Assembly: GCF_001570945.1 (NCBI RefSeq)
Contig: NZ_BCSQ01000029.1
Span: 1 to 43,265 of the forward strand
Length of the DNA: 43,265 bases
Direction: 5' to 3'
Origin: Janibacter anophelis NBRC 107843
Lineage (GTDB): Bacteria > Actinomycetota > Actinomycetes > Actinomycetales > Dermatophilaceae
Positions within the stretch are counted from its first letter, which is position 1. Each line of letters opens with the position of its first letter. Both the position numbers and the translations under genes were made by a program. Below are positions 9,416 to 41,377 of the stretch, in pieces. Below the pieces are notes generated by a model. That model did no database searches. It had not been told where the DNA came from and saw only the letters and a program-made list of their open reading frames with translations.

Positions 9416-9424
9416 CCACGAGGA

Positions 9425-9466: not shown

Positions 9467-9493
9467 CCCGTCGGTGGCGAGCTCGTGCGACGG

Positions 9494-10348: not shown

Positions 10349-10385
10349 CTCGGCATCCTCTCACCGCGCGGCCTACCCTGTGGCC

Positions 10386-11663
10386 ATGAGTGAGAGCACC
10401 GTCCCCGCCACCGCCTCCGTGCCGGAGCTCGCCGGGCGTGCCCGGACGGCCTCGCGGCACCTCGCCCTGCTCACCCGCGCCGACAAGGACGCCGCGCTCC
10501 TCGCGCTCGCCGACGCCGTCAACGCCGCAACCGAGCAGGTCGTCGCCGCCAACGCCGAGGACCTCCAGCGGGGACGCGAAGGGGGGATGGCCACCGGCCT
10601 CCTCGACCGCCTGACCCTCGACGCGGCCCGCGTGGCCGCCGTGGCGCAGGCGCTGCGGGACGTCGCCGCGCTGCCCGACCCTGTCGGTGAGGTCGTGCGC
10701 GGCTCGACCCTGGCCAACGGCCTGCAGATCCGCCAGGTGCGCGTGCCCATGGGCGTGATCGGGATGATCTACGAGGCGCGCCCCAATGTCACGGTCGATG
10801 CCGCCGGCCTGGGGCTGAAGTCCGGCAACGCGATGATCCTGCGCGGCGGCTCGGCCGCGGCGAGCACCAACCGAGCCCTCGTCGACACGCTGCGTGCCTC
10901 GCTCGCCGAGCAGGGGCTGCCGGAGGACGCCGTGCAGCTGCTCGAGGGCGGCCACGACGCGGTCAAGGAGCTGATGACCGCCCGCGGCCTGGTCGACCTG
11001 CTCATCCCGCGTGGGGGAGCGGGCCTGATCCAGACCGTCGTCACCGAGTCGACGGTGCCCGTCATCGAGACCGGCATCGGCAACTGCCACGTCTACGTCG
11101 ACGCCGCCGCCGATCTGGGCAAGGCGCTGGCCATCACGGTCAACTCCAAGACGCACCGTCCCAGCGTGTGCAATGCGGCCGAGTCGCTGCTCGTGCACCG
11201 TGGGGTCGCCGACGACTTCCTGCCCAAGGCCTTGGCCGACCTCGCCGGCGCAGGTGTGGTCCTCCACGGTGACGCGACGACCGTCGAGCTCGCCCCCGCG
11301 GGGATCGAGGTCCTCCCGGTGAGCGATGACGACTACGCCGCCGAGTTCCACGGCCTCGAGATGTCGGTCGCGGTCGTCGAGGACGTCGAGGCAGCGCTGG
11401 AGCACGTGCGCCGCTTCGGCACCGGACACACCGAGGCCATCGTCACCGAGGACCGGGCTGCGGCTCGCCGGTGGACCGCCGAGGTCGACGCCGCCGCCGT
11501 CATGGTCAACGCGTCCACGCGCTTCACCGACGGCGGCGAGTTCGGCTTCGGCGCGGAGATCGGCATCTCGACGCAAAAGCTGCACGCCCGCGGCCCGATG
11601 GCCCTGCCCGAGCTGACGACGACGAAGTGGGTCGTCGAGGGCGACGGCCAGGTCCGCCCCTGA
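10386..11663 (+). CDS. proA: Gamma-glutamyl phosphate reductase
   Basis: 425 aa. It reduces gamma-glutamyl phosphate with NADPH to glutamate semialdehyde, the second step of proline synthesis. Aldehyde-dehydrogenase-type features: [46 protein letters not shown], and the catalytic Cys in [12 protein letters not shown]; the C-terminus has the ProA-specific [23 protein letters not shown] 10386 lies about 7 nt after a TACCCT -10 (10374-10379), so the mRNA is probably leaderless. It is separated from proB by the CHAP gene and pdxY. Confidence 0.97.
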
Positions 11664-11674
11664 CCGACCGCTCT

Positions 11675-11800
11675 CTCGACGTCAAGACGTTGCATTTCCC
11701 CGGGCAAATGCAAACGTTCGACATCAAGACGTTGCATCTCCCCGGGGAAATGCAAAGTCTCGACGTCAAGACTCTGCATTGCCGTAGGGCAATGCGGTTC
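11675..11800. repeat. Three tandem 42-bp palindromic repeats
   Basis: Units start at 11675, 11718 and 11759 (CGACGTCAAG or CGACATCAAG at 11677, 11719 and 11761, period 42). Each contains a hairpin: TTGCATTT/AAATGCAA around CCCCGGGC in unit 1, a nearly perfect TTGCATCTCCCC/GGGGAAATGCAA in unit 2, and TGCATTGCC/GGGCAATGC in unit 3. Read as protein, both strands give a 14-residue repeat (about LDVKTLHFPGEMQ), a by-product of the palindrome. No ribosome site supports a gene. It lies between proA and its terminator. Confidence 0.85.
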
Positions 11801-11833
11801 AGAGACCGAGGCTGAAGCACGGACACAGAGACA

Positions 11834-11871
11834 GGTCGAGGGTCCTCCCGCCCCCGGGAGGACCCTCGACC
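11834..11871 (+). terminator. 17-bp perfect hairpin downstream of proA
   Basis: Arms 11834-11850 and 11855-11871 pair perfectly with a CCCC loop, 170 nt after the proA stop and beyond the palindromic repeats. It is the strongest terminator candidate for the proA transcript. Confidence 0.85.
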
Positions 11872-12176
11872 GCTGTCCGTGGCACGACCCGCGCGTGGGC
11901 CCTGCGGCGACTGCAGCACGACGTCGGGCACCGGCCGCGACGTCGCGGTGACACGTGGACCAGGAGGCGCCGACATCGCTCGAGTCGCCGGTGCCCGGCA
12001 CGGGTGTGGGCCCGTGCACGAGCGTGCGAAGTCGTTATCCCTGTGGTCCTGCCGGCCGCTCGACGAGGTCTTGCGCCTCCCCGCACGGCCGCGGTGTGGG
12101 AACTGTTCTACGCGCCTTCGTGGCCGAACGGCAACAGCGGGGCCGGCCCATCGCTGAGCGGACACCACCCACAGGT

Positions 12177-12243
12177 GTGTCCACAGGCACATGGTGCAGT
12201 CCTCGTGGCTACCCACAGGGCTGTGGACCACGGTGGTGGACAA
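12177..12243. promoter_or_regulatory. Cluster of DnaA-box-like sites in non-coding DNA
   Basis: The stretch 11872-12276 shows no supportable gene. Near its end are three 8-of-9 matches to the actinobacterial DnaA box TTGTCCACA: GTGTCCACA (12177-12185), TGGTCCACA on the minus strand (12222-12230) and TTGTCCACC on the minus strand (12235-12243). DnaA binding is inferred, not shown. Confidence 0.35.
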
Positions 12244-12276
12244 CCGGCGGCCATCGCGGCCGGGTAGCATGGCCGC

Positions 12277-12489
12277 ATGCTGAGCTCCTTTGCCTCCATC
12301 GCCGCCGAGGCCGTTCACCACAACGAGCTGCCCGTCCCGCCGTGGGTCTACGGCCTGTTCGCGCTGCTCGTCTTCGCGATGATGTTGGGCGTCCTCTTCG
12401 CCTTCCGCCAGGCCGCGACCAAGATCCCGGCCCCGCACAACACCGTGGCGCACGACGACCACGGTCACGACGTCGGGGACCACCACTGA
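12277..12489 (+). CDS. Small membrane protein upstream of nadD
   Basis: 70 aa. One transmembrane helix (about 23-44, [22 protein letters not shown]) and a hydrophilic His/Asp-rich tail ([13 protein letters not shown]) that could bind metal. ATG 12277 is 7 nt after a TAGCAT -10 (12265-12270), indicating a leaderless transcript. Similar small proteins sit directly before nadD in related actinobacteria; no function is known to me. Its stop overlaps the likely CTG start of nadD. Confidence 0.75.
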
Positions 12490-13079
12490 GCAAGCGCCTG
12501 GGCGTGATGGGTGGGACCTTCGACCCCATCCACCACGGGCACCTCGTCGCAGCGAGCGAGGTGCAGTCCCTCTTCGACCTCGACGAGGTCGTCTTCGTCC
12601 CCACGGGCGAGCCCTGGCAAAAGGCGGACAAGCAGGTCAGTCCGGCCGAGCACCGCTACCTCATGACGGTGGTCGCGACGGCGTCCAACCCCCGCTTCAC
12701 CGTCAGCCGGGTCGACATCGACCGTGACGGCCCGACCTACACGAGCGACACCCTTCGCGACCTGCGCGCGCAGCGCCCCGATGACGAGCTGTTCTTCATC
12801 ACCGGAGCCGACGCCCTCGCGCAGATCCTGTCGTGGAAGGACGTCGACCAGCTGTGGGACCTCGCCCACTTCATCGGCGTCACGCGTCCCGGCTACCACC
12901 TGAGCGAGTCCGGCCTGCCGGAGGACAAGGTGACGCTGCAGGAGGTGCCGGCCATGGCGATCTCCTCCACCGACTGCCGCCAGCGCGTCAGCGACGGCGA
13001 ACCGGTCTGGTACCTCGTGCCGGACGGCGTCGTGCAGTACATCAACAAGTACGAGCTCTACACCGACGACCGGGAGTGA
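12486..13079 (+). CDS. nadD: Nicotinate-nucleotide adenylyltransferase
   Basis: 197 aa if translation starts at CTG 12486. It adenylylates NaMN to NaAD in NAD synthesis. Nucleotidyltransferase motif [12 protein letters not shown] near the start, [10 protein letters not shown], and the [10 protein letters not shown] motif at the C-terminus. The start is uncertain. CTG 12486 overlaps the preceding stop (CTGA), has GGGG at 12476-12479 and yields the usual [14 protein letters not shown]-terminus. GTG 12504 or ATG 12507 would cut into the conserved first strand and have no ribosome site. It is coupled to rsfS through a GTGA overlap. Confidence 0.95.
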
Positions 13080-13477
13080 CCCAGCACGTGGCAGCCACCC
13101 AGCAGGCCATCGACCTCGCGACCATCGCCGCGCGCGCCGCGGCCGACAAGCTCGCAACGACCATCACCGGACTCGACGTGTCCGGCCAGATGCCCCTGAC
13201 CGACATCTTCCTCATCGTCTCCGCCGACAACGAGCGCCAGGTCCAGGCGATCGTCGACGCCGTCGAGGAGGCCATGCGCGAGCAGGCCGACACCAAGCCC
13301 CTGCGCCGCGAGGGCAACGGCCCCGGGCGCTGGGTGCTCATCGACTTCGGCGACGTCGTCGTGCACGCCCAGCACGACGAGGAGCGCGACTTCTACGACC
13401 TCGAGCGCCTGTGGCGCGACTGCCCGCACCTCGACCTCGGGGTCGTGGGCTCGCAGCAGACCATCGGCGACCAGTGA
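13076..13477 (+). CDS. rsfS: Ribosome silencing factor RsfS
   Basis: 133 aa from GTG 13076 (GTGA overlap with nadD) or 129 aa from GTG 13088, which has GGGAG 11 nt upstream. Conserved RsfS features: [39 protein letters not shown] and FYDLERLW. It binds L14 and blocks 30S joining when nutrients are scarce. The nadD-rsfS pairing is widely conserved. The next gene again starts in its stop codon. Confidence 0.95.
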
Positions 13478-14163
13478 CCGAGGCGACCCGGCGGGTCTCC
13501 GCGGAGGCCGCCGGCGGGGCGAAGGGGGAGCCCCGTCGCCTCGTCGTCCTGCGCCACGGCCAGACCACGTCCAACCTCAAGGGCATCTGGCAGGGCCAGC
13601 TCGACCATGAGCTGACCGAGCTCGGCCACGAGCAGGCCCGTGCCGCCGCGGCGGCGATCTCCTCCCTTCGTCCCTCGCGGGTGGTCACCTCCGACCTCGT
13701 GCGCGCCCGGGTGACCGCCGAGGAGGTCGCGACGGCGAGCGGCATCGACCTGTCCGTCGACGCGCGCTGGCGCGAGATCCACGCCGGCGGCTGGCAGGGC
13801 ATGACCGCGGCGCAGGTGTACTCGCAGTACCCGGAGGACGCGGACAAGCTCATCAGCGGTGAGGACTTCAAGCGCGGTGGCCACGGTGAGTCGCTCGCCG
13901 AGCTCGCCGCGCGGGTGCGCCCCGCCCTCGACGAGCTCGTGACGTCCATGGACCCGGGGGAGTGCGTCGTCATCGCCACGCACGGCGTCACCGGGCGCAC
14001 CCTCGTCGCCGAGCTCGTCGGGCTCGACCAGACGACCGCCTGGCGGATCCTCGGCGGCTTCGGCAACTGCCACTGGGCGGTCCTCGAGGACGGGGCGACG
14101 TCGATGAGCGGCCGTCGCGGCTGGCGGATCACCCAGTGGAATGCCTCCGCGGAGGGCCTCTGA
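13474..14163 (+). CDS. Histidine phosphatase family protein
   Basis: 229 aa from GTG 13474 (GTGA overlap with rsfS). Phosphoglycerate-mutase-like phosphatase: RHG motif in VVLRHGQTTSNLKGIWQGQ (about 26-44) and the second catalytic His in VVIATHGVTGRTLVAEL. Such proteins follow rsfS in many actinobacteria and are annotated as broad phosphatases or glucosyl-3-phosphoglycerate phosphatase-like; the substrate cannot be fixed from sequence. Last gene of the four-gene coupled operon 12277-14163. Confidence 0.9.
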   Translation: MTEATRRVSAEAAGGAKGEPRRLVVLRHGQTTSNLKGIWQGQLDHELTELGHEQARAAAAAISSLRPSRVVTSDLVRARVTAEEVATASGIDLSVDARWREIHAGGWQGMTAAQVYSQYPEDADKLISGEDFKRGGHGESLAELAARVRPALDELVTSMDPGECVVIATHGVTGRTLVAELVGLDQTTAWRILGGFGNCHWAVLEDGATSMSGRRGWRITQWNASAEGL

Positions 14164-14182
14164 CCGGGTCGGACGGCTCGAT

Positions 14183-14213
14183 TTGGAGAACCGGGGGTCC
14201 GTATGGGTAAACT
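14183..14213 (+). promoter_or_regulatory. Putative tRNA-Ala promoter
   Basis: TTTGGAG at 14182-14188 gives a weak -35, and TAAACT (14208-14213) a good -10, with 19 bp between. Transcription would start about 23 nt before the mature tRNA 5' end. Confidence 0.5.
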
Positions 14214-14243
14214 CTCGCAGTCCCCTTCGGGGGAATCCCACTC

Positions 14244-14319
<76 letters not shown>

Positions 14320-14328
14320 GTGGTACAT

Positions 14329-14361
14329 CGAAGGCCCGGACCGTCACGGTCCGGGCCTTCG
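14329..14361 (+). terminator. Terminator after tRNA-Ala
   Basis: Arms 14329-14344 and 14346-14361 are perfectly complementary, forming a long GC-rich hairpin with a minimal loop, 9 nt after the tRNA and before the DUF488 gene. Confidence 0.85.
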
Positions 14362-14387
14362 GCGTTGCCGGGGGGCATGATGATCGG

Positions 14388-14927
14388 ATGAGCACCGTCC
14401 ACACGATCGGCCACTCGACGCGGCCCGTCGAGGACTTCATCGCGCTGCTGCGTGGTCTCGACATCACCCGCGTCGTGGACATCCGCACCGTGCCCAAGTC
14501 ACGGCGCAACCCGCAGTACTGGCACGACGCCCTCGCGGAGTCCCTCGCCGGGGCAGGACTGGGCTACACGCACGTCCCCGAGCTCGGCGGCCTGCGCAAG
14601 CGGCGCCCCGACTCGGTCAACACGGCGTGGCGCAATGCCTCCTTCCAGGGCTACGCCGACCACATGGGTTCGGAGGAGTTCGGTCGGGGCCTGGCGCAGC
14701 TGATGGAGATCGCCGAGGCCGAGTCCCCCGTCATCATGTGCGCGGAGGCGGTGCCGTGGCGCTGCCACCGGTCGCTCGTCGGTGACGCGCTGCTCGTGCG
14801 CGGCGTCACGGTCCTGGACGTCATCGGCGACAGCGCGCCGAAGCCGCACACGTTGACCTCCTTCGCGGTCGTCGACGGCGAGAGCGTCACCTACCCGGGC
14901 GAGGACGAGGCGGGCGAAGGGGGATGA
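14388..14927 (+). CDS. DUF488 family protein
   Basis: 179 aa. It begins MSTVHTIGHSTRPVEDFIALL, the DUF488 signature. Next come VVDIRTVPKSRRNPQY, the ELGGLR element and CAEAVPWRCHRSLVGDALL with two conserved Cys. The biochemical function of the family is unsettled. ATG 14388 is the family-typical start; longer versions would run into the tRNA terminator. It appears to be a single gene; the next start is 64 nt away. Confidence 0.92.
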   Translation: MSTVHTIGHSTRPVEDFIALLRGLDITRVVDIRTVPKSRRNPQYWHDALAESLAGAGLGYTHVPELGGLRKRRPDSVNTAWRNASFQGYADHMGSEEFGRGLAQLMEIAEAESPVIMCAEAVPWRCHRSLVGDALLVRGVTVLDVIGDSAPKPHTLTSFAVVDGESVTYPGEDEAGEGG

Positions 14928-14990
14928 CTCTGGCACGTGGGGTGGAGGAGTATGGGGAGTCGGGGTCCCCACCGCGCAGGAGGAGTCGTC

Positions 14991-15323
14991 ATGGAGTCGA
15001 TGTCACTGACCACCTTGGCCGAGGAGCACCTGGCCGCCGCCCGCGTCGGGTCTGCCGGCCGCAGCGCCGTCACGGTCCACGGCCGGCACGACTTCGTGCT
15101 GCGCCAGACGCTCATCGCCCTCGTGGAGGGGCAGGCGCTGGCCGAGCACGAGAGCCCGCCGGAGGCGACGCTGCAGGTCCTGCAGGGGCGGGTGCGCGTG
15201 ACGGCGGGCGAGGACTTCTGGGAGGGAGCGGCGGGGGAGCTGCTCGTCATCCCGCCCGAGCGCCACGACCTGCGGGCCCTCGAGGACTCCGTCGTGCTGT
15301 TGAGCGTCGGCACGGCCGGCTGA
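14991..15323 (+). CDS. Cupin-domain protein
   Basis: 110 aa, a single small beta-barrel. ATG 14991 is preceded by a strong ribosome site (AGGAGGAG, 14978-14985). Cupin motif 1 is degenerate (GQALAEHESPPEATLQVLQG) and motif 2 is short (GELLVIPPERHDLRALED). The metal-binding His set is partly kept (H in AEHE, H in ERHDL). Related proteins lower LPS-independent stress or sense small molecules, but I assign no function. The following membrane-protein gene begins 2 nt after its stop. Confidence 0.8.
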   Translation: MESMSLTTLAEEHLAAARVGSAGRSAVTVHGRHDFVLRQTLIALVEGQALAEHESPPEATLQVLQGRVRVTAGEDFWEGAAGELLVIPPERHDLRALEDSVVLLSVGTAG

Positions 15324-15324
15324 G

Positions 15325-15777
15325 GTGCCGTCCACGCCCCGGCAGGCGCGTGTCCTGCTCGTCCTCGGCGCTCTGGCCGTCGTCCTCGGCGGACTCGTCG
15401 CGGCCGTCACCGGACCCTTCGGATGGACGAAGGGGAGTTGGGCGGCGGCCTTCCTCGTCCTCGTCGTCGGCGTGGCCCAGTACGCCATGGGCTGGATGCG
15501 CGCGGACGTCGCGGACGACCGCTCCGGCTGGGTGCAGGTCGCGGGGTGGAACCTCGGCGGTGCCCTGGTCGTCCTCGGCACGCTCGTCGCGACCCCGCTG
15601 CTCGTCGACCTCGGCTCACTGCTGCTCGTCGTCGCGCTCGCGCTGGCACTGCGGGCCGACCTGCGCCCACGTCCTGCCGCCCGCCCCCGCGCGATGGTCG
15701 TCGGCTACCGGCTGCTCCTGCTCGTGATGCTCGTGAGCATCCCGATCGGCATCACCCTGTCGCACCTGCGGAACTGA
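15325..15777 (+). CDS. Four-helix integral membrane protein
   Basis: 150 aa from GTG 15325. Four predicted membrane helices (about 9-30, 39-56, 72-94 and 126-146) with basic loops (RADLRPRPAARPRAM), so the arginine-rich loop is probably cytoplasmic. No recognised domain. It is tightly linked to the cupin gene (2-nt gap), suggesting co-transcription. Its 3' end overlaps the convergent amidohydrolase gene by 26 nt. Confidence 0.8.
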   Translation: MPSTPRQARVLLVLGALAVVLGGLVAAVTGPFGWTKGSWAAAFLVLVVGVAQYAMGWMRADVADDRSGWVQVAGWNLGGALVVLGTLVATPLLVDLGSLLLVVALALALRADLRPRPAARPRAMVVGYRLLLLVMLVSIPIGITLSHLRN

Positions 15778-16612
15778 CGCGCAGGAGCCGGGCGGCGTTG
15801 TCGTGCAGGACCTTTCGCTCCCACTCCTCGCCGAGCCCCAGGCGCCGCACGGCCTCGACGGCGTGCTCGTACGGGTAGGGGATGTTGGGGAAGTCGCTGC
15901 CGAAGAGCACCTTGTCGCCGAGGGCGTGCAGGTCCTCCAGCCGCTCCCGGGGGAAGGGGGTGACCGCCTCGGTGAAGTCCGTGAAGGCCATCGTCGTGTC
16001 GAGGTGGACGTCGGGGTGGGCGGCGGCGAGGTCGAGGAAGTCGCCGTAGTCGGGCATGCCCATGTGGGCGATGACGAGCACGAGCCCCGGGTGGCGCTCG
16101 AGCAGGTCGCGCACCGCGTCGGGCCCGGTGAAGCGCCCCGGGGCCGGACCGTCCCCGGCGTGCATGACGATCGGGGTCCGACGGCGCTCGAGGAGGGCCC
16201 AGACGTCGTCGAGCAGCGGGTCCGCGAGCGAGTAGTCACCGACCTGGACATGGACCTTGAGCACCCGGGCGCCCGCGTCGAGCGCCGCGGCCGTGTACTC
16301 GGCGGTCCCCGGCTCGGGGTAGAAGGTCGCCGAGTGCAGCACGTCGGTGTGCTCCGCGGCGAACCCGGTCGACCAGTCGTTGAGCCAGGCCGCCATGCCC
16401 GGCCGGTGCGCGTAGTTGAGCGAGGTGAAGGCCCGCACACCCAGGCCGCGCAGCGTGGCCAGGCGCTCCCCTTCGTCCGTGCGGTAGGTGATCGGCCACG
16501 CACGGCCGATGAGCGGACCCGCCGAGTCGAAGTACGCCCACACCTTGTCGAGCACCCGCTGGGGCATGAAGTGGGTGTGGATGTCGATGATCCCCGGGCC
16601 GAGCGCGTCCAT
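15752..16612 (-). CDS. Amidohydrolase family protein (amidohydrolase_2)
   Basis: 286 aa from ATG 16612. Metal-dependent TIM-barrel hydrolase/decarboxylase: HxH in IIDIHTHFMPQ (residues 9-18), later KVHVQVGDYS, IVMHAGDGP, VIAHMGMPDYGDF and the catalytic Asp in VLFGSDFPNIPYPYEH. The group includes decarboxylases such as ACMSD; the substrate is unknown. Upstream in-frame starts exist, but they would lie within the leuS promoter. The gene is divergent from leuS. Confidence 0.9.
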   Translation of the reverse strand: MDALGPGIIDIHTHFMPQRVLDKVWAYFDSAGPLIGRAWPITYRTDEGERLATLRGLGVRAFTSLNYAHRPGMAAWLNDWSTGFAAEHTDVLHSATFYPEPGTAEYTAAALDAGARVLKVHVQVGDYSLADPLLDDVWALLERRRTPIVMHAGDGPAPGRFTGPDAVRDLLERHPGLVLVIAHMGMPDYGDFLDLAAAHPDVHLDTTMAFTDFTEAVTPFPRERLEDLHALGDKVLFGSDFPNIPYPYEHAVEAVRRLGLGEEWERKVLHDNAARLLRVSSAGATG

Positions 16613-16643
16613 GGGCCACACCCTAGGGAGGAGGGCGGCCAAG

Positions 16644-16649
16644 TAGTCT
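16644..16649 (+). promoter_or_regulatory. Putative leuS -10 element
   Basis: TAGTCT, identical to the rplU -10, lies 36 nt before the leuS ATG. No convincing -35 is seen upstream. GGGAGAA (16670-16676) serves as ribosome site. Confidence 0.4.
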
Positions 16650-16685
16650 GATCCCCGACCTTCGAGCCCGGGAGAACCAGCACTG

Positions 16686-19582
<2,897 letters not shown>

Positions 19583-31904: not shown

Positions 31905-34811
31905 ATGACCGAGACCGCCGGCAAGCCGAGCACGCGTCGCGGGTCCCGCACCAAGGGCCTGACGATCGAGCGGATCCACACCACCGAGGGCGTCCACCCC
32001 TACGACGAGGTCACCTGGGAGAAGCGTGACGTCGTCCAGCAGAACTGGAAGACCGGCGAGACGATCTTCGAGCAGCGTGGTGTCGAGTTCCCCGACTTCT
32101 GGTCGGTCAACGCCTCGACGATCGTCACGACGAAGTACTTCCGCGGTGCCGTGGGGTCCCCCGAGCGTGAGGCGGGTCTGAAGCAGCTCATCGACCGTGT
32201 CGTGCTCACCTACGTCAAGGCGGGCAAGGAGCACGGCTACTTCGCGACGGACACCGATGCTGAGGTCTTCGAGCACGAGCTGACCTACGCCCTGCTCCAC
32301 CAGATCTTCAGCTTCAACTCCCCGGTGTGGTTCAACGTCGGCACGGCCAGCCCGCAGCAGGTCAGCGCCTGCTTCATCCTCTCGGTCGACGACTCGATGG
32401 ACTCGATCCTCAACTGGTACAAGGAGGAGGGCTTCATCTTCAAGGGCGGCTCCGGCGCCGGCCTGAACCTCTCCCGCATCCGCTCCTCCAAGGAGCTGCT
32501 CTCCTCCGGCGGCACGGCCTCCGGCCCGGTCTCCTTCATGCGTGGTGCCGACGCCTCCGCGGGCACCATCAAGTCCGGTGGCGCGACCCGCCGCGCGGCG
32601 AAGATGGTCGTCCTGGACGTCGACCACCCCGACATCGAGGAGTTCGTCGAGACCAAGGCGCGCGAGGAGGACAAGATCCGCGCGCTGCGTGACGCCGGCT
32701 TCGACATGGACCTCGGCGGTGCAGACATCACCTCGGTCCAGTACCAGAACGCGAACAACTCGGTGCGCGTCACCGACGAGTTCATGCGTGCGGTCGACGA
32801 GGGCACCGAGTTCGGACTGACCTCCCGCAAGGACGGGTCGGTCATCGAGACCGTCGACGCCCGCGAGCTCATGGGCAAGATCGCCAAGGCCGCGTGGGAG
32901 TGCGCCGACCCGGGCATCCAGTACGACGGCACGATCAACGACTGGCACACCAACCCGGAGACCGGTCGGATCACCGCGTCCAACCCGTGCAGCGAGTACA
33001 TGTCGCTCGACAACTCCTCGTGCAACCTCGCCTCGCTCAACCTGCTGAAGTTCCTCGGGGACGACGACACCTTCGACGCCGCGCGTTTCCAGGCGGTCGC
33101 CGAGCTCGTCATCACGGCGATGGACATCTCCATCTGCTTCGCGGACTTCCCGACCGAGTCGATCGGTGCGACCACCCGTGACTACCGCCAGCTGGGCATC
33201 GGCTACGCCAACCTCGGCGCGCTGCTCATGGCGACCGGGCACGGCTACGACTCCGACGGTGGCCGTGCGCTGGCCGCGTCGATCACCTCGCTCCTGACCG
33301 GTGCGTCGTACAAGCGCTCCGCCGAGCTGGCCGGGATCGTCGGGGCGTACAACGGCTACGCCCGCAACGCGGATGCCCACAAGCGCGTCATGCGCAAGCA
33401 CCAGGCGGCCAACGACCAGATCCGCACGATGCACACGATGGACAAGGACATCCACGCCTACGCCACCAAGGCGTGGGACGCGGTCGTCAAGGTCGGGGAG
33501 AAGAACGGCTACCGCAACGCGCAGGCGTCGGTGCTCGCCCCCACCGGCACCATCGGCTTCATGATGGACTGCGACACCACGGGCATCGAGCCGGACTTCT
33601 CGCTCGTGAAGTTCAAGAAGCTCGTCGGCGGCGGCTCCATGCAGATCGTCAACCTGACGATCCCGCGTGCGCTGAAGAAGCTCGGCTACACCGAGGAGAC
33701 CATCGAGGCGATCGTCGAGTTCATCGCCGACAAGGGTCACGTCATCGACGCCCCGGGCCTGAAGCCGGAGCATTACGAGGTCTTCGACACCGCCATGGGT
33801 GCGCGCGCGATCGCCCCGATGGGTCACGTGCGGATGATGGCCGCGGTGCAGCCCTTCCTCTCCGGTGCCATCTCCAAGACGGTCAACCTGCCGGAGTCGG
33901 CCACGGTCGAGGAGATCGAGGACGTCTACATGCAGGGCTGGAAGCTCGGCCTGAAGGCGCTCGCGGTCTACCGCGACAACTGCAAGGTCGGCCAGCCGCT
34001 GTCCGATGGTGGGTCCACCGCCAAGGACGCCAAGGCCGGTGCCGAGGCTGCTGCGGCCGCGACCGCGGAGAAGGTCGTCGAGTACCGCCCGTTGCGTCGT
34101 CGCCTGCCGAAGCGTCGCACCTCGCAGACCACGAGCTTCGCCGTCGGTGGGGCCGAGGGTTACCTGACCGCCGGTACCTACGAGGACGGCGAGCTGGGCG
34201 AGATCTTCCTGAAGTTCGGCAAGCAGGGCTCGACCCTGGCCGGTCTGATGGACGCGTTCTCCATCGCGATCTCGATCGCGCTGCAGCACGGTGTGCCGCT
34301 GGAGACCTACGTCGAGAAGTTCACCAACCTGCGCTTCGAGCCGGCCGGTATGACGGACGACCCGGACGTGCGGATGGCGCAGTCGATCATGGACTACGTC
34401 TTCCGTCGCCTGGCGCTGGACTACCTGGACTTCGACACGCGGTCCTTCATGGGGATCCACACCGCGGAGGAGCGGGCCCGTCAGCTCGAGACCGGGTCGT
34501 ACGAGGCAACGTCCTCGGACGACGACGAGGACTACGACGACGACAACTACTCCCAGGGCGTCCCCACCACGGAGGCCAAGGAGGCCAAGCCGGCCGCCAA
34601 GGAGGAGAGCGTCGTCACCGACCAGTCCGGTGCCGGTGCCGCGTCGGCCCGTGAGGCCGACGCCACCGTCCACTCCTCGGCTGAGCTGCTCGAGAAGTTC
34701 CAGGGCAAGACCGCCGATGCCCCCATGTGCATGACCTGCGGGACCAAGATGCGCCCCGCCGGCTCCTGCTACGTCTGCGAGGGCTGCGGCTCGACCAGCG
34801 GGTGCAGCTGA
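31905..34811 (+). CDS. nrdJ: Vitamin B12-dependent (class II) ribonucleotide reductase
   Basis: 968 aa, the usual size for the actinobacterial NrdJ. It makes deoxyribonucleotides with adenosylcobalamin as radical source. Recognisable segments: FNSPVWFNVGTASPQQVSAC, GGSGAGLNLSRIRSSKELLS, NPCSEYMSLDNSSCNLASLN with the active-site Cys, and APTGTIGFMMDCDTTG. An acidic linker precedes the C-terminal Cys cluster (CMTCGTKMRPAGSCYVCEGC), a zinc/thiol shuttle. ATG 31905 has GAGGAGAAGAG upstream. An interrupted terminator hairpin follows. Confidence 0.98.
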   Translation: MTETAGKPSTRRGSRTKGLTIERIHTTEGVHPYDEVTWEKRDVVQQNWKTGETIFEQRGVEFPDFWSVNASTIVTTKYFRGAVGSPEREAGLKQLIDRVVLTYVKAGKEHGYFATDTDAEVFEHELTYALLHQIFSFNSPVWFNVGTASPQQVSACFILSVDDSMDSILNWYKEEGFIFKGGSGAGLNLSRIRSSKELLSSGGTASGPVSFMRGADASAGTIKSGGATRRAAKMVVLDVDHPDIEEFVETKAREEDKIRALRDAGFDMDLGGADITSVQYQNANNSVRVTDEFMRAVDEGTEFGLTSRKDGSVIETVDARELMGKIAKAAWECADPGIQYDGTINDWHTNPETGRITASNPCSEYMSLDNSSCNLASLNLLKFLGDDDTFDAARFQAVAELVITAMDISICFADFPTESIGATTRDYRQLGIGYANLGALLMATGHGYDSDGGRALAASITSLLTGASYKRSAELAGIVGAYNGYARNADAHKRVMRKHQAANDQIRTMHTMDKDIHAYATKAWDAVVKVGEKNGYRNAQASVLAPTGTIGFMMDCDTTGIEPDFSLVKFKKLVGGGSMQIVNLTIPRALKKLGYTEETIEAIVEFIADKGHVIDAPGLKPEHYEVFDTAMGARAIAPMGHVRMMAAVQPFLSGAISKTVNLPESATVEEIEDVYMQGWKLGLKALAVYRDNCKVGQPLSDGGSTAKDAKAGAEAAAAATAEKVVEYRPLRRRLPKRRTSQTTSFAVGGAEGYLTAGTYEDGELGEIFLKFGKQGSTLAGLMDAFSIAISIALQHGVPLETYVEKFTNLRFEPAGMTDDPDVRMAQSIMDYVFRRLALDYLDFDTRSFMGIHTAEERARQLETGSYEATSSDDDEDYDDDNYSQGVPTTEAKEAKPAAKEESVVTDQSGAGAASAREADATVHSSAELLEKFQGKTADAPMCMTCGTKMRPAGSCYVCEGCGSTSGCS

Positions 34812-35014: not shown

Positions 35015-36070
35015 ATGACTGAGCAACACCCTCCCGCCTTCGAGTTCATCGACCTGTTCGCGGGCATCGGTGGGCTGCGAATCGGCCTCGAGTCCATCGG
35101 TGGTGAGTGTGTGTTCTCGTCCGAGTGGGACAAGTTCGCGCAGCAGACCTACGAGGCGTGGCACGGGGAACGTCCGGCCGGAGACATCACCCAGATCGAT
35201 CCCCACTCGGTCCCTGACCACGACATCCTCGCGGCGGGATTCCCGTGCCAGCCCTTTTCCATCGCCGGAGTCTCGAAGAAGATTTCGTTGGGGCGGGCCC
35301 ACGGCTTCGCGGACGTCAAGCAGGGCAACCTCTTCTTCGCTCTCGCGGACGTCGTCCGAGCCAAGAAGCCGTCCGTTCTCCTGCTGGAGAACGTGAAGAA
35401 CCTTCGCTCTCACGACCGCGGCAAGACCTGGGAGGTCATCCAGGAGACGCTGGACAAGCTCGGTTATGAGGTCCACGCCCAGATCATCGACGCTGCCGGT
35501 TGGGTGCCTCAGCACCGCGAGCGGATCTTCATCGTCGGATTCCGCCGCGACATCTTCAGCGATGTGTTCCCGGAGGGCGTCCCGTTCGAGTTCCCGACGG
35601 GTGAGGGTGGCCACCAGCTGCAGGAGATCCTCGAGGAGGATGTCGATTCGAAGTACACACTCAGCAACAAGCTGTGGGCGTACCTGCAGAACTATGCGCT
35701 GAAGCACAAGGCCAAGGGGAATGGCTTCGGCTTCGGTCTTCCTGCACTCGACGGGATCAGTCGTACGTTGTCGGCGCGCTATCACAAGGACGGGTCGGAG
35801 ATCTTGATTCGTCAGGGAGATGGGCGGAACCCTCGTCGCCTCACGCCCTTGGAGGCGGGGCGGTTGATGGGGTTCCCGGTGGACGATCCGAAGTACGGGA
35901 TCGTCGTGTCAGACACGCAGGCATACCGCCAGTTCGGTAATGCCGTGGTCCCCAAGGTGGCCAGTGCTGTCGCTCGTCAGATCGAGATCGTCAACGAACT
36001 GGCGGCCGACGCCGGAACCGACTGGAAGTCCACGATGGGGGCGGACGAGGATGAGCTCGCCGCGAGCTGA
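35015..36070 (+). CDS. dcm: DNA (cytosine-5) methyltransferase, Dcm/M.EcoRII-like
   Basis: 351 aa. C5-methyltransferase motifs in order: [11 protein letters not shown] (11-20), [10 protein letters not shown] with nucleophile C78, VI ENV (125-127), VIII QHRER (166-170), IX and [11 protein letters not shown] near the end. The target-recognition region [12 protein letters not shown] followed by [16 protein letters not shown] matches the Dcm/M.EcoRII type, pointing to CCWGG methylation at the inner C. It is shorter than E. coli Dcm because the long N-terminal part is absent. First of three overlapping island genes; it protects DNA from the EcoRII-like nuclease encoded next. Confidence 0.95.
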
Positions 36071-37220
36071 ACGGATCGTTGCAGCCGCGCTGGATGCCGG
36101 CGGAGCGTTCCTGAAGGTGGTGCAGCCGAACGACGTCGGGGTCACTGGCGGTCATCAGAAGGGCTTTCACCTCAGCAAGCGGGTGTGGTCCTACTTCACC
36201 CCTCAGGAGCCCGAGAGAGGGATCAACCACAACCACCCGATCCAGGTCGAGTGGGCCAACGGGACGGTCACCAACTCGATCATCAAGTGGTACGGCACGG
36301 GCACTCGGTCCGAGTACCGCATGACGTCCTTCAACCGAATCCGGAACTTTCCCTACCTGTCGCCGGAACGGCTGGGGGGCGTCCTCGTCCTGGTCGCGCG
36401 TTCGGGCGCTCCTTGGTACGCCGACATCTTTGAGAGCGATGTCGATGTCGAGCATGTGACGGCAGCACTGGGCGTCAGCCTTGATGATTCGTCATGGGCT
36501 CTGTTCTCGGCGGCGGGTCGGGATGCCCGCAGCAGTGAGTCCACAGACGAGTGCGAGCGCACCGCATTCGACGCCGAGGCAGATCGACTCGCGGCCTTCC
36601 CGCCGACGCGAGTCATGTCGCGCACGGCCCAAGAGATCGTGGCCAGCTGCTGGCGTGGTTCGCCGGAGTCGGCGGATGATCTGTTGCTGCACCTCGTCCG
36701 AGCCGAGTACGACCTGTTCAAGGCTGTGGAGCGACGTCTGGTGATGTCCGAGATCGCTCATGGGTTCGACTCAGTCGATGAATTCGTCCGGACGGCTGGG
36801 ACCATCACGAACCGGAGGAAGTCCCGGGCTGGCCATGCCCTGGAGAACCACTTCGAGCACATTCTCGAGCAGAGCGGGATTCCGTTCGAGTCCCAGCCGA
36901 TCATCGACGAAACCAAACCCGACATCCTCATCCCCGGCGCCAAGGAGTACTACGACACCACCTTCGATGTGAATGGGCTTCGCTTGGTGGGTGTCAAGAC
37001 CACGTGCAAGGACCGCTGGCGTCAAGTGCTGAGCGAAGGGAGGCGGCGGGGTCTGCCCCGCTTCATCCTGACACTGCAGAAGGGCGTCTCGAGCCAGCAG
37101 ATGCGCGAGATGCGTGGTCACGATCTGAGGCTGGTGGTTCCGCAACCGTTGCACGAGCACTTCGCCCCCGACGACCGCCGGTACCTCCTGACGGTTGGTG
37201 ACTTCTTGGCCCATGCCTGA
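36051..37220 (+). CDS. EcoRII-type restriction endonuclease
   Basis: 389 aa from ATG 36051, overlapping the methyltransferase by 20 nt. Two domains as in EcoRII (404 aa): an N-terminal effector DNA-binding domain (about 1-165, with [14 protein letters not shown] and [17 protein letters not shown]) and a C-terminal catalytic domain starting near [12 protein letters not shown]. Catalytic residues align with EcoRII in kind and spacing: D291, Y300, K316 and K320 ([22 protein letters not shown]). The enzyme therefore looks active and probably cuts at CCWGG after engaging a second site. A functional methyltransferase neighbour supports an intact type IIE restriction system. Confidence 0.93.
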
Positions 37221-37668
37221 GCAGCCTCCGGTCTCCAGTGAGTCCGTCCGACGCCGATTTTCGCGTCAGAAGCGTGCCGACACGCGTCCCGAGATGGAAC
37301 TGAGGCGGGAACTCCATCGTCGCGGGCTGCGGTATCGCGTGGGCTATCCCGTCCCGGGCCTGCCTCGGCGATCCATCGACATCGCCTTTCCCAGCGCCAA
37401 AATCGCGGTGCTGGTCGACGGGTGCTTCTGGCATGCCTGTCCGGATCACTACGTCCCGCCGAGTTCGAACGCTGCTTGGTGGGACGACAAGATCAAGAGG
37501 AACGTGGCCCGCGATCGTGAGACGGACGCACAGCTGGACGATCAGGGCTGGGAGGTGCTCCGGTGCTGGGAGCATGAGTCGGCGACGGACGCGGCGGACA
37601 GGGTGATGGAGGTGGTTGCTGGACGTCGCGCCGGCCCCAAGGTCCTTCCTACCCAGTCAGACTCTTGA
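37213..37668 (+). CDS. vsr: Very short patch repair endonuclease Vsr
   Basis: 151 aa from ATG 37213, overlapping the nuclease gene by 8 nt. Vsr features: TRPEMELRRELHRRGLRYRV, catalytic Asp D56 (RRSIDIAFP), DGCFWHACPDHY with H74 and zinc-ligand Cys, and KIKRNVARDRETDAQLDDQGW. E. coli H64 is replaced by Asp (D69), as in many actinobacterial Vsr proteins. It nicks T:G mismatches arising by deamination of 5-methylcytosine made by the neighbouring Dcm. The 3' end overlaps the convergent DUF6339-like gene by 20 nt. Confidence 0.95.
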   Translation: MPEQPPVSSESVRRRFSRQKRADTRPEMELRRELHRRGLRYRVGYPVPGLPRRSIDIAFPSAKIAVLVDGCFWHACPDHYVPPSSNAAWWDDKIKRNVARDRETDAQLDDQGWEVLRCWEHESATDAADRVMEVVAGRRAGPKVLPTQSDS

Positions 37669-38383
37669 CGAGCTCTCGCGCATCTTCCACGGACAGGTAA
37701 CTCAGGTCCTTGTAGCCAAAGGACAGGGTCATCTCCATCATCAGGCTCTTCGCCTTCTCTGCGGCCCCCGGCCCCCACGCAGCCACTTGATCCAGGACGG
37801 CAACCCGCAACGCGGGCACCGCGCCGGCATCACGGTCGAAGACATGCAGGACGATGTCTTCATTGCTCAAGGCCACTCTGAGGTGGTGCCACTCATCGTC
37901 GCTCCCTTCTTCAGAGGGCGACCCGTGGGTCAGTTCTGCCAACCACCACAGCCTGGCGATGCCGTGCCTGATCAGACGTCCGCTGGTTGCAGTGCCCGCC
38001 TTCAGGAGCCAACGGTCAGTCAACCGTCCACGCCAATTGCGGCTCCCTTCCAATGGCCACCGGTCGGACAGGTAGCCACGGAAGGGACCGAGCGCCAGCC
38101 ACGTCCACAGGCGCGCGTCTGAACCAGCGACGAGAGGCATCGCCCCGAGAGACAGGTACAGGGCCTGGGCGTTCTTGAACTCTGACTGAGCTCTTTCGCC
38201 GCTGACCGCGAGGCGCGGCAAACCACCTGTCTCGAAAGGCAGGGCCATCGTGGTTTCCGGAAGAGCCATCAGGCGGTCGGCTTCCAGGAAGAACGTGGGG
38301 ACATCGGCGGCCTCCTCCGCCAGGACGCCAAGCTCGGCAAGGGCATCCCAAGTGAAGCACCGCGGTTCGGCGACTTCAGTCAT
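37649..38383 (-). CDS. DUF6339-like protein
   Basis: 244 aa from ATG 38383, overlapping the upstream gene by 8 nt. It is a helical soluble protein whose middle segment (WTWLALGPFRGYLSDRW, then SGRLIRHGIARLWWLAELTH) matches the pattern I know for DUF6339, a family seen beside restriction-modification and ATPase genes in actinobacteria. Function is unknown. Last gene of the leftward four-gene operon, converging on vsr. The family call is from memory of the motif and would need a profile search. Confidence 0.6.
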   Translation of the reverse strand: MTEVAEPRCFTWDALAELGVLAEEAADVPTFFLEADRLMALPETTMALPFETGGLPRLAVSGERAQSEFKNAQALYLSLGAMPLVAGSDARLWTWLALGPFRGYLSDRWPLEGSRNWRGRLTDRWLLKAGTATSGRLIRHGIARLWWLAELTHGSPSEEGSDDEWHHLRVALSNEDIVLHVFDRDAGAVPALRVAVLDQVAAWGPGAAEKAKSLMMEMTLSFGYKDLSYLSVEDARELVKSLTG

Positions 38384-39221
38384 CGAAAGCTCCCATCGAA
38401 GTGAGTTGCTTGAAGGCGGCCGCGATCGGGTCTTCGAGAATGGCCTGCGCGATCTCGATGGAGTCCCGACCGCCCAACTTCTTGTCCTCGATGATCTGGG
38501 AGATGGTCGTGCGCCACCCCCCGGGAGTGGGTGCGGGGCCATCTGAGCGCTTCAGCTCTTCGAGTGCATGCATGAGTGCCGGGACCACGACTGTGGACAT
38601 CTGAATCGTCGGTGCAAATCCGCTGGCAAAGTCGTCGTACACCTTCGGTGGGAAGGAGACCTCGACGAACTCGTCACCGCTTGTGTTGACCTTGACGAAA
38701 CGCTTGTTGTCGCTTCTCCTGACGAAGCGGAAACACGATTCCAAGGGAGGGCTCATGGGGTCGTACTTCTTCTTGGCATCAAAGGAGAAGGTTCCACCGT
38801 TGGCCAAGAGGTCGCCCTTGCCGATCTCGAAGACGGCCTGCCCGTAGTCATGGTGCTGGCGGGAGAAGCTGAATGCGGGCATGACCTCGGTGGCCAGCGA
38901 AGTGACGAAGACAGTGACCAATCCGTCGAGTTGCTGGTGGTCTAGGACGGCTGAGTATCTGACGACGTCCGGGGTGAGCGGAGTTGACTCCAGCTGGAGT
39001 TGCCCGTTGCGCATCGTTGCAGAGCACTTCCACCGGGCAGCAATGTCGGCGCCACCGTTCTCGAGCAGCCATCGCAGGTCGGGGTCGTCGCAGCGGACGT
39101 CGAACATGATGCTCACATGGTCGACTCCGACATCGATCGTCGGATTGAGGACCAAGAACTCCGATGAGACGTCATCGCTCCCGTCGAGCACAGGGTGCGG
39201 GTATGAACCTCGGCTCGCCAT
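38376..39221 (-). CDS. Unrecognised island protein (beta-rich, 281 aa)
   Basis: 281 aa from ATG 39221, which shares one base with the stop of the ATPase gene (TGATG). The first two thirds read as alternating beta strands (SIMFDVRCDDPDLRWLLE, TVFVTSLATEVMPAFSFSR, FSFDAKKKYDP, RFVKVNTSGDEFVEVSFP) and the last third as helices with KKLGGRDSIEIAQAIL. No nuclease, helicase or HTH motif is seen, and I do not recognise the family. Its fixed position between the GHKL ATPase and the DUF6339-like gene, with overlaps on both sides, implies a shared function, perhaps a structural or target-recognition subunit (inference). Confidence 0.7.
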   Translation of the reverse strand: MASRGSYPHPVLDGSDDVSSEFLVLNPTIDVGVDHVSIMFDVRCDDPDLRWLLENGGADIAARWKCSATMRNGQLQLESTPLTPDVVRYSAVLDHQQLDGLVTVFVTSLATEVMPAFSFSRQHHDYGQAVFEIGKGDLLANGGTFSFDAKKKYDPMSPPLESCFRFVRRSDNKRFVKVNTSGDEFVEVSFPPKVYDDFASGFAPTIQMSTVVVPALMHALEELKRSDGPAPTPGGWRTTISQIIEDKKLGGRDSIEIAQAILEDPIAAAFKQLTSMGAFDD

Positions 39222-41104
39222 CACTTGACCCCCAATCGGTAGTGGCGTCCTGTGTTGAACTCCAACTCGATGTGATTCGGGACGCCAGCGATGAGTGTCA
39301 GATCCTTGATCGTCATGCCGGAGAACTTCAAGTCCTGCCACTGCTCACCATCACGAATCCTGGCCGCCACGATGGTCAGGTCATGTGTCTCCGGACTTCC
39401 CCCGGCGCCCAGCGGAGCCAAGGTCACGGAACCAGCGGTGTTCTCCTTCGGTACCAAGATCAGCTTCGAGACCTTTGAACCTGCGGGCGCAAAGCTCCTG
39501 AATTCAACGTCGCCGGCGCGAATCTTGCCGGTCCCGTCACCCGGCTTGCCCTGACCCTCGAGGTCGCCGCCGGCTGACTTGCGCTCCGCATCCCCTCCGG
39601 AGTCGCGTCCCTTCGTGGCATCGTCAGGTCCGCCCGAGACGGCTGGGCGACTGACGGTCAATCGTCGAGGCCCTTGGTCGCTCACCTGGACGCCGTACTC
39701 CGCGGACGGACTGCCAACACGGCTGGCCGACTCGACTTCAGTGGGGTCACCACTCGGCCTGCTTCGTCCATCCGCTCGCACGTCGCTCATGGGCGCGCCG
39801 TTGGCGGGTAGGAATCTCTCGAGCCCCTTGACCTTTGTGGCCGAGGCCATGTCGTTGGCAAATCGCTTTCGCAGTTCGTCGCGAACGAAGCCCTTGAGCT
39901 TGTTGACCAGCCCTGCGTCGGATCGGCGACCATGGGAGTTCCACTTGTTGTGCTCGGGGGGCTCGATGTCCCTGAGTCTGGAGTTGCCCGGTTCATCGGG
40001 GACGACCAGAACGGCAGCGTAAGGCGCGGGGATCTGGTGGCGAAAGTGATCGATCGTCATCAGGGGCTTGCGCATCGTCACGGTTCCGAGCGCATGGTCC
40101 AAGGTGTCGTCCTCGTAGATGTACAACCGCACCAGCCCGAGATCCGGAAAGGTCGTCTCGACCGGTTCAGATTCCATTGCCCGGAAGAAGGGCAGCGTCT
40201 TGTCCCGCAGTTCGGGGGAGGACACCAAGACGTCGCGCAGAGTCTCCGCGTTGAGAGTCCACGAGGAGGTAGGGGTCTCACCGCTGACGGTGAGGCGGCC
40301 GGCCGCGATCGCTGCAAAGAAGTTCGCCGCGACGGCTTCCTTGATGCGATTGAGCATCGGGTCGTTGGTGGCGTCGCTGTACCCCATGATGAGCACGTCG
40401 GTGCCGGGCTCGGTTCGCGCCGGCAGGCTGGGTAGCGCTGGGTGATTCCTTGGATAACTGAAGTCGTCCGCGATGGAACGATCGGTGAAGTAGCCCGAGC
40501 CCACTCTCCACTTGTCGTCGCCGTCCTTGTGAGAGGCAAGCCGCGCGAGGCCGGCAAGGATGACGTCGGGATCATCCACCCTTCGAGTTCGGTAGAAGAC
40601 GGTGGACAGATTCGATGCCATTGGGCCGACGGCAGAGCCGATGCCGAAGGAGCCTCCGCGGCCGCTCTCGCTCGACGATGCACCGGAGCCGCGCGTGAGG
40701 ATGCTGAGCGGTGACTGCTGGTCCTCGATCTTCTCGGTACCGCCCAACCCAACAGTGCCGAAGTCGCTGATGGACAGAACCCACTGCCGAGGTTCATGTG
40801 TGGCTTCCAGAGATTCCTTCAGACGTGACGACCCCTGGAGGTCTCCTGCGGCCTCAACCGAGGCTTTCAGGGAAGAACGCAGCCCCTCAAGGTCAGGGAT
40901 CTCTTTTGTCTCCACATGGGTGAGTTGAAACGTGACATGGACCGAATCTGCGTCTCTGTGCTTGGCGTCGAGCGAGTTCTGGATGCACTCCCGAGCAACC
41001 GCGTCGCTGTAGTCGCGCCCAGTGAAGAACTCCTCGGATGCGTTGTGGGGGCCTTGATATCCGGCTCGACCTGCGAGCTCGAAGTGAAAGCCGAAGTCAC
41101 TCAT
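39221..41104 (-). CDS. GHKL ATPase (MutL/MORC/Hsp90-like) of the island
   Basis: 627 aa from ATG 41104, overlapping the 75-aa gene by 8 nt. N-terminal GHKL ATP-binding fold: N-box ARECIQNSLDAK (about 37-48), G1 motif SDFGTVGLGG (113-122) and G2/lid GRGGSFGIGSAVG (148-160). A second part (about 230-420, LIMGYSDATNDPMLNRIKEA, FFRAMESEPVE) is followed by a long charged, disordered linker (about 470-540) and a C-terminal beta domain. GHKL ATPases related to MutL and MORC are established partners in restriction-type operons, where ATP-driven dimerisation clamps DNA. No nuclease motif is visible in this protein. Confidence 0.85.
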   Translation of the reverse strand: MSDFGFHFELAGRAGYQGPHNASEEFFTGRDYSDAVARECIQNSLDAKHRDADSVHVTFQLTHVETKEIPDLEGLRSSLKASVEAAGDLQGSSRLKESLEATHEPRQWVLSISDFGTVGLGGTEKIEDQQSPLSILTRGSGASSSESGRGGSFGIGSAVGPMASNLSTVFYRTRRVDDPDVILAGLARLASHKDGDDKWRVGSGYFTDRSIADDFSYPRNHPALPSLPARTEPGTDVLIMGYSDATNDPMLNRIKEAVAANFFAAIAAGRLTVSGETPTSSWTLNAETLRDVLVSSPELRDKTLPFFRAMESEPVETTFPDLGLVRLYIYEDDTLDHALGTVTMRKPLMTIDHFRHQIPAPYAAVLVVPDEPGNSRLRDIEPPEHNKWNSHGRRSDAGLVNKLKGFVRDELRKRFANDMASATKVKGLERFLPANGAPMSDVRADGRSRPSGDPTEVESASRVGSPSAEYGVQVSDQGPRRLTVSRPAVSGGPDDATKGRDSGGDAERKSAGGDLEGQGKPGDGTGKIRAGDVEFRSFAPAGSKVSKLILVPKENTAGSVTLAPLGAGGSPETHDLTIVAARIRDGEQWQDLKFSGMTIKDLTLIAGVPNHIELEFNTGRHYRLGVK

Positions 41105-41324
41105 CGAACGAGACCTTTCGTCGCGACTGCGTGTCAGGGTCGAACTTGGCACGACACTCTCGCAGTTCATCCTCGATTGGTGCGAAGAGGCGCTCCACGT
41201 CTTCTGATTCGAAGTCGTAGTTCTTGCGGTTCGAGAGGTTGCCGAGAAGGTTGATCTCCTTGATGAGTCGATCGCCGCGCGCCTGCGCCAGTCGGCGAAA
41301 TCGCTGATGCTTGGACTCGTTCAC
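41097..41324 (-). CDS. Small helical charged protein, first gene of the GHKL operon
   Basis: 75 aa from GTG 41324 with ribosome site GGAGG 6 nt upstream. Highly charged and helical: ESKHQRFRRLAQARGDRLIK, then a conserved-looking INLLGNLSNRKNYDFESEDV and an acidic-basic C-terminus. I recall similar small proteins (KHERF..LAE.R, LGNLSNR.NY.Y) encoded in restriction and phage-defence neighbourhoods, but no function. It is not a typical HTH controller protein. Lying directly behind the operator-promoter, it could be a subunit or a nucleoid-associated regulator (inference). Confidence 0.75.
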   Translation of the reverse strand: MNESKHQRFRRLAQARGDRLIKEINLLGNLSNRKNYDFESEDVERLFAPIEDELRECRAKFDPDTQSRRKVSFDE

Positions 41325-41340
41325 GACGCCTCCATGGCTA

Positions 41341-41377
41341 GATATCCGAAATATAGCGGATATCTTGGCCGCGTCAA
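41341..41377 (-). promoter_or_regulatory. Promoter with perfect inverted-repeat operator for the GHKL operon
   Basis: On the minus strand, TTGACG (complement of 41372-41377) and TATATT (complement of 41350-41355) are 16 bp apart, the best promoter in the window. The -10 is centred in a perfect inverted repeat GATATCCG-N8-CGGATATC (41341-41348 and 41357-41364), so a bound dimer would block transcription of the 75-aa gene, whose start is only about 20 nt from the predicted +1. Confidence 0.85.

Follow-up and report, generated by a model that had tools for sequence, protein, structure and literature searches.

We examined a 43,265-nucleotide stretch of the Janibacter anophelis NBRC 107843 genome (GCF_001570945.1, contig NZ_BCSQ01000029.1, positions 1-43,265; hereafter, the window), in which a cassette of four complete genes—orf75, A, B, and C—runs towards a dcm-EcoRII-vsr restriction-modification (RM) system (Table 1). 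Gene calls and Pfam matches bear out an initial annotation that had described four overlapping leftward genes of 75, 627, 281, and 244 amino acids (aa) converging on these three; of the interval it claimed, 39221-41377, the promoter and the first two genes fall inside and B and C outside. The adjacent A, B, and C genes contiguously match the models of PDC-M33, a candidate system in PADLOC-DB, over nearly their full length for A and B and over residues 63-203 of 244 for C. An "undescribed defence operon", as the annotation had it, is thus already listed where A, B, and C are concerned, and only orf75 is without a PADLOC family. The entry is a bare label (below, M33): orf75, the coupling to methylases, the dcm-A-B-C operons, and the fusions reported here are not in what its models showed.

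Table 1. Features of the M33 cassette and the convergent RM system in the window
Feature	Description	Positions	Strand	Basis
Promoter	TTGACG, 16-nt spacer, TATATT	41377-41372 and 41355-41350	minus	by eye
orf75	75-aa leader protein, GTG start, first cassette gene	41324..41097	minus	gene call
A (PDC-M33A)	paraMORC2-type GHKL ATPase, 627 aa, E381/H385 (ExxxH)	41104..39221	minus	PADLOC 1.5e-73 and motifs
B (PDC-M33B)	281 aa, constant partner, no recognised fold	39221..38376	minus	PADLOC 7.4e-29
C (PDC-M33C)	DUF6339 protein, 244 aa	38383..37649	minus	Pfam DUF6339 2e-28; PADLOC 7.9e-23
dcm	C5-cytosine methyltransferase, 351 aa	35015..36070	plus	Pfam PF00145 1.7e-83
EcoRII	EcoRII-type restriction endonuclease	36051..37220	plus	Pfam EcoRII-C 2.3e-53, EcoRII-N 9e-14
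vsr	very short patch repair endonuclease	37195..37668	plus	Pfam Vsr 1.2e-11; TIGR00632 3.6e-30

Successive cassette genes overlap by 8 bp (orf75/A), 1 bp (A/B), and 8 bp (B/C), and C meets vsr tail-to-tail. The C5 methylase, EcoRII endonuclease, and vsr expected of an EcoRII type II RM system are all present by Pfam (the endonuclease frame is open from 35940, its likely start placed by eye at 36051), and this system is a separate convergent unit whose definition does not include M33. Beyond dcm lies 31905-34811, which we take to be the ribonucleotide reductase gene nrdJ, and on the other side of the cassette is a DUF222 gene (Pfam) on the opposite strand, starting near 41440 by eye. The GC content of the 35-41.5 kb block is 0.60-0.65, against 0.65-0.71 on both sides, as expected of an acquired island.

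The N (RExxQNSxDA), G1 (DxxTxGL), and G2 (GGSFGIG) boxes of GHKL ATPases noted earlier in the 627-aa protein are present, though no GHKL profile from Pfam, NCBIfam, or the PDB matched it; within G2, Ser157 of the window protein takes the place of a Lys found in 34 of 38 aligned homologues. E381 and H385 are kept in 72/72 aligned A proteins (38/38 in a 38-row alignment); one of the two patterns used to scan for relatives contained this ExxxH motif, which also occurs in A proteins outside that pattern (for example, L039, L074, and L090) and in L101-L103, found another way. C, earlier called DUF6339-like, is a true DUF6339 protein. Comparisons with profiles of solved structures returned V-ATPase subunit E fragments (E-value (E) 0.2) and CENP-M for B; designed helical repeats (1.8e-4), ferritin, and histone H4 for C; for A, a 7-row alignment gave no match and a 38-row one a single histone H2B chain (E 0.9). 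We treated all of these as compositional, reflecting helical or low-complexity stretches.

Relatives of A were sought in one genome per species across 84,980 species, yielding 153 relatives, and the best 79 loci were kept; with five plasmid loci (a sixth record, near-identical in score to another, was left out), one short contig from a phage collection, and the window, these make 86 loci, which by their record titles span many bacterial phyla, candidate phyla, and archaea. Loci were chosen on two conserved A motifs, so that very diverged relatives are missed, and full-flank counts refer to 61 loci, the 25 of 86 with short flanks being set aside. Both B and C match their profiles near A in 73/86 loci (B taken alone, 74/86). 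Among the other 13, four are truncated by a contig end (L034, L036, L037, and L083), seven carry a 260-aa type of gene where B would be and a 243-aa type, which matches C by profile, where C would be, and two (L084 and L094) have C plus a diverged middle gene. With full flanks, B and C are found by profile in 57/61 loci, and in 61/61 if the diverged kinds in the remaining four (L069, L084, L090, and L094) are counted. The diverged middle gene c9 matches B at E 1.8e-4 (probability 48) and the middle genes of L084, L094, and L101-L103 at E 5.9e-4 (probability 29), whereas c10 matches C at E 1.6e-9 (probability 96); with such weak profile support, the middle genes are putative B genes, counted by position and length more than by sequence.

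Sought without the use of A, DUF6339 was found in 4/396 Actinomycetota genomes and at four places in 3/251 Chloroflexota genomes, and A adjoins it at 8/8 places, three of which (the window, L050, and L065) were already known from A; the Pfam model missed the C of G045, G331, and G351 and so undercounts. The B profile found the window only (1/396 Actinomycetota genomes) and so misses diverged middle genes. The PADLOC A model matched 6/396 Actinomycetota genomes, some partially, and all six carry B- and C-type genes after A: besides the window, A is joined by a middle gene, C, and dcm in G171 (L101), G045, and G331 (L147 and L149); the set is diverged, with dcm, in G351 (L137); and G266 (L148) has pieces of A with diverged B- and C-like genes and no dcm match in 15.5 kb. 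This last locus (L148 5859-7985), with its broken A, looks like a decaying copy. Distance correlations, computed over the 56 loci kept after dropping a near-duplicate (L042), loci without one of the four genes (A, B, C, and dcm), and genes outside length limits, reach 0.914 for A-B, 0.913 for A-C, and 0.891 for B-C. By these sequence comparisons the A-B-C trio is one unit. The earlier view of all four cassette genes as one set stands for A, B, and C, which recur together across phyla, with and without an EcoRII-type enzyme among their neighbours; it does not extend to orf75, present in 37/86 loci and also heading other operons. A phage home for the cassette was considered but is not supported: viral scans with the ATPases of the window and L016 found no relative, and one short contig among 50,697 phage records matched.

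Of the 61 full-flank loci, 55 have an m5C (5-methylcytosine) methylase no more than 7 kb from A, compared with 32 that have vsr and nine that have an EcoRII-type enzyme in this range. In the 36 of 79 genome loci where the methylase family was counted genome-wide, there were 84 matches, fragments included, in ~114 Mb, such that a 16-kb span would hold one by chance ~1% of the time; 34/36 of these loci have one within 7 kb of A, versus about 0.4 predicted from family density. The neighbouring nuclease, by contrast, varies: besides EcoRII, there are MutH-like (L044), MvaI/BcnI (L043), and AspBHI-N/Mrr (L014) enzymes, a protein with an NgoFVII C-terminal domain (L024), HNH (L066 and L072), GmrSD (L035 and L095), and, below Pfam cut-offs, a BpuJI/AlwI-like neighbour (L015), some neighbour genes being named by eye. 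M33 pairs with a modification enzyme rather than with a restriction enzyme. This largely refutes the earlier idea of an accessory to the EcoRII-like system, in which the ATPase would bridge two recognition sites for EcoRII: despite the convergent neighbours in the window and an EcoRII-type enzyme within 7 kb in 10/86 loci, there is no such match within 7 kb in 76/86, where scanned neighbours are instead MutH, MvaI/BcnI, AlwI/BpuJI-like, NgoFVII-C, AspBHI-Mrr, HNH, or none, and we regard it as very improbable.

The link to modification enzymes extends beyond m5C. L060 has a D12 adenine methylase beside C and no m5C match in its genome, C is fused to an m5C methylase in L102, and C is fused to an SspD domain in L080, L082, and L092 (PADLOC 1.4e-17 to 6.1e-16) and, according to a profile built from these three, in L134. 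The C-SspD genes (L080 11806-13485, L082 4053-5678, L092 11793-13424, and L134 8718-10400) occur in an archaeal metagenome-assembled genome (MAG), an Acidimicrobiales MAG, and two Chloroflexota-type genomes; L082 also adjoins DndB, and L134 is a three-gene island between metabolic-looking genes (by eye). No modification enzyme was recognised in L052 and L069; the former, a flavobacterial locus without dcm, encodes a C with ~400 extra residues that match no family (11491-13494). In L088, where two convergent A-B-C trios (8914-18378) flank an AIPR gene and a short vsr-like frame, dcm adjoins the second trio and stands over 7 kb away from the first.

Two layouts recur. In the window type (32/86 loci), orf75 lies directly upstream of A and the cassette stands beside a separate RM system; in the operon type (21/86), dcm lies directly upstream of A on the same strand with a gap below 60 bp, and orf75 occurs in only one locus and vsr within 7 kb in 12. 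The remaining 33/86 meet neither rule. The A-dcm distance correlation is 0.643 over the 56 loci, a value reached in 0 of 1000 permutations; at 0.935 in operon-type loci (18) versus 0.552 in others (38), it shows dcm as a stable part of one layout that is frequently swapped in the other. A Pfam scan of one to three neighbouring proteins in each of 12 of the 21 operon-type loci found an HNH protein in L046 and L072, with a separate EcoRII set near L073; the other nine yielded ATPases, proteins of no family, or housekeeping genes (YchF, MFS, nucleoside phosphorylase, and others), and vsr too is missing from five of them (L040, L048, L049, L051, and L053), though operon-type loci without a recognised nuclease may still hold unrecognised restriction enzymes.

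The genus of the window offers a comparison at a single site. Counting that of the window, 15/16 genomes of the genus contain the nrdJ 3' end. For two of them, G403 and G401, which belong to related species, DNA homology extends through dcm (orthologous proteins, 84-85% identical) and stops at window positions 35991-35992, ~80 bp before the dcm stop; beyond the break lie vsr, then MzaE, MzaD, MzaC, and MzaB, pointing towards dcm as the window cassette does, and then the DUF222 gene. L124 scores 1.7e-78 for MzaB, 1.2e-119 for MzaC, 7e-10 for MzaD, and 4.6e-83 for MzaE, and L125 is alike; G401 also has a diverged EcoRII-type enzyme. In eleven further genomes of the genus homology ends at the nrdJ stop, and one more is limited by its contigs; in the four of the eleven that were fetched (L126-L129) neither dcm nor M33 was found at the site. 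Across L124-L129 and the window, the nrdJ-DUF222 interval is a variable cargo site, ~1.9 kb in three genomes and 5.3 kb in one, and holding a Mza-type island in two and the M33 island in the window. The same methylase is thus paired, in one genus and at one site, with two different ATP-driven cassettes, and the place of M33 being taken by a known defence module suggests that M33 helps cells treat unmarked DNA as foreign. Elsewhere, MzaC/D/E-like genes and orf75-A-B-C flank one dcm in L056, and in L101 (3898-16575) M33A is fused to a MzaA-like sigma factor with a helix-turn-helix and has C, dcm, vsr, and a DrmA (DISARM) helicase as neighbours, so that the locus may be an M33/Mza/DISARM hybrid.

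M33 shares with MzaABCDE, called a validated system by Miller 2022, a GHKL ATPase, dcm and vsr neighbours, and the chromosomal slot just described; with E allowed up to 1, the Mza models match none of orf75, A, B, and C, and M33, though possibly similar in action, does not belong to Mza. Also close are the paraMORC2 ATPases (Iyer et al. 2008, PMC2292703), which, in the text covered, share GHKL motifs, ExxxH, RM and Vsr neighbourhoods, and lateral mobility; that text puts a helicase gene in ~70% of MORC neighbourhoods, with a minority without, and names neither B nor DUF6339 as a partner. VcSduA (Shedu type I-D, paraMORC3) is likewise a GHKL ATPase, and the portion of its description consulted (PMC12137116) reports it as an experimentally confirmed defence protein, its role tested in V. 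cholerae and E. coli; its nuclease lies in the same protein, whereas none is recognised in M33.

Taken together, we consider it somewhat better than an even bet (roughly 55%) that M33 is a portable, ATP-driven, helicase-free partner module of DNA methylases that defends against DNA without the partner's mark. On binding ATP, MutL- and MORC-type GHKL ATPases close around DNA. A would accordingly be an ATP-driven DNA clamp, with B and C as its reader and adaptor; the complex would act on DNA lacking the partner's mark, and then either block that DNA itself or recruit a nuclease. Those operon-type loci in which no nuclease was recognised, L134 likewise, and the absence of a nuclease-like conserved site from B and C (by eye) favour the first course; frequent Vsr and restriction-enzyme neighbours, and AIPR in L056, L087, and L088, favour the second. 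A bolder version, which we hold only tentatively and think on balance unlikely, is that dcm with A, B, and C (or A and B with C-SspD alone) would carry out nuclease-free restriction, the clamp trapping, compacting, or silencing unmarked DNA as eukaryotic MORCs do, with DUF6339 as adaptor; the account of MORC2 as a DNA compaction machine, in the excerpt at hand (PMC12216690), serves as a lead only.

Several observations weigh against M33 as a mark-dependent defence module. No published bench evidence for its A, B, or C was found in the literature; no nuclease or other effector was recognised in the three proteins, and the most conserved polar positions of B and C are unlike a nuclease site (by eye). 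The assignment of A to the GHKL ATPases is by motif only. The dcm distances track A beyond shuffled rows, so that dcm exchange is partial, and many loci already have a type II restriction enzyme, which makes a second effector seem redundant. Finally, the Mza/M33 swap was seen in two genomes only, and L125 holds Mza and an EcoRII-type enzyme together, so that Mza or M33 may be an accessory.

Among the alternatives, the one that survives best is that A, B, and C might help a modification enzyme find or complete its sites, shielding the host from its own restriction. The fusions of C to a C5 methylase and to SspD, the joint divergence of dcm with A, B, and C in operon-type loci, and the lack of a recognised nuclease in the cassette would fit such a helper, as would the action of Arabidopsis MORCs in establishing RNA-directed DNA methylation (PMC8277788, from the section consulted). 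The same Dcm, however, stands beside Mza without A, B, and C in two genomes of the genus, some genomes have up to nine further m5C methylase matches (counted irrespective of adjoining M33), and PADLOC classes M33 as candidate defence, which leaves this explanation doubtful. Less likely still is an independent defence system that shares islands with RM systems and does not read their mark: L060, in a genome without an m5C methylase match, and the exchanged dcm and variable orientation in window-type loci would suit it, but few loci are without a modification enzyme nearby, modification enzymes of two unrelated kinds occur fused to C, and in 21 loci dcm stands immediately before A. M33 could also be a MutL-like matchmaker that works with Vsr on T:G mismatches from 5-methylcytosine deamination, in keeping with the m5C methylase (55/61) and vsr (32/61) neighbours, the MutY-like protein (HhH-GPD and NUDIX_4) adjoining L049, and the stimulation of Vsr by MutL in E. 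coli; yet 29/61 full-flank loci have no vsr match within 7 kb, the T:G lesion does not arise from the activity of SspD or D12 adenine-methylase partners, and the same-site replacement is by a helicase-nuclease-AIPR set, and we find this role improbable. The defence module partnered with a methylase remains our preferred explanation.

Upstream of the cassette, a perfect 9-bp inverted repeat, AGATATCCG-N8-CGGATATCT (41365-41340), overlaps the -10 element and is a probable operator; its core with 8-bp arms occurs once in the window, against 0.09 expected with up to 3 mismatches. Counterparts of this palindromic, A/T-rich motif precede orf75 in M33 loci from several phyla; the motif scored 90.1 versus 24.6-35.9 in 12 resampled sets, and 75.1 (30 sequences) versus 21.9-34.8 in six sets of 31 other regions lying upstream of genes in these loci; by a simpler inverted-repeat test, 8/34 M33 upstream regions stood out versus 3/19 controls. 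The motif is, from these comparisons, real for M33 operons and a candidate cassette operator. We considered orf75 as a DNA-binding regulator of its own operon and rejected this, as no region upstream of the orf75 homologues leading other operons had an inverted repeat that stood out (0/4). The 37 loci with orf75 were counted by direct profile; gene calls gave 35/86, a longer frame hiding some. The protein has no NCBIfam family and only two Pfam matches, both below cut-off. In 296 Actinomycetota genomes it occurs at five places in four genomes and, besides the window, heads other gene runs; orf75 is not specific to M33. Homologues come first in non-M33 runs in L143, L144, L145, and L146, three of which encode a GHKL-like protein (by eye), and orf75 may be a small leader-protein family common to several defence-like operons.

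If M33 acts as we propose, the candidate entry PDC-M33 and the long-noted paraMORC2 ATPases gain a testable role. The occurrence of the same methylase at the same site with M33 or with Mza, within one genus, amounts to a natural experiment in the reading of methylation marks. That a small subunit, DUF6339, is found fused both to a methylase and to a phosphorothioation-type enzyme suggests one adaptor shared by unrelated DNA marks. Should the clamp work without a nuclease, M33 would be a bacterial counterpart of MORC-based silencing in which DUF6339 generally couples the clamp to DNA-marking enzymes of unrelated kinds, and restriction by clamping would connect RM islands in bacteria with the silencing machines that eukaryotes build on MORC proteins.

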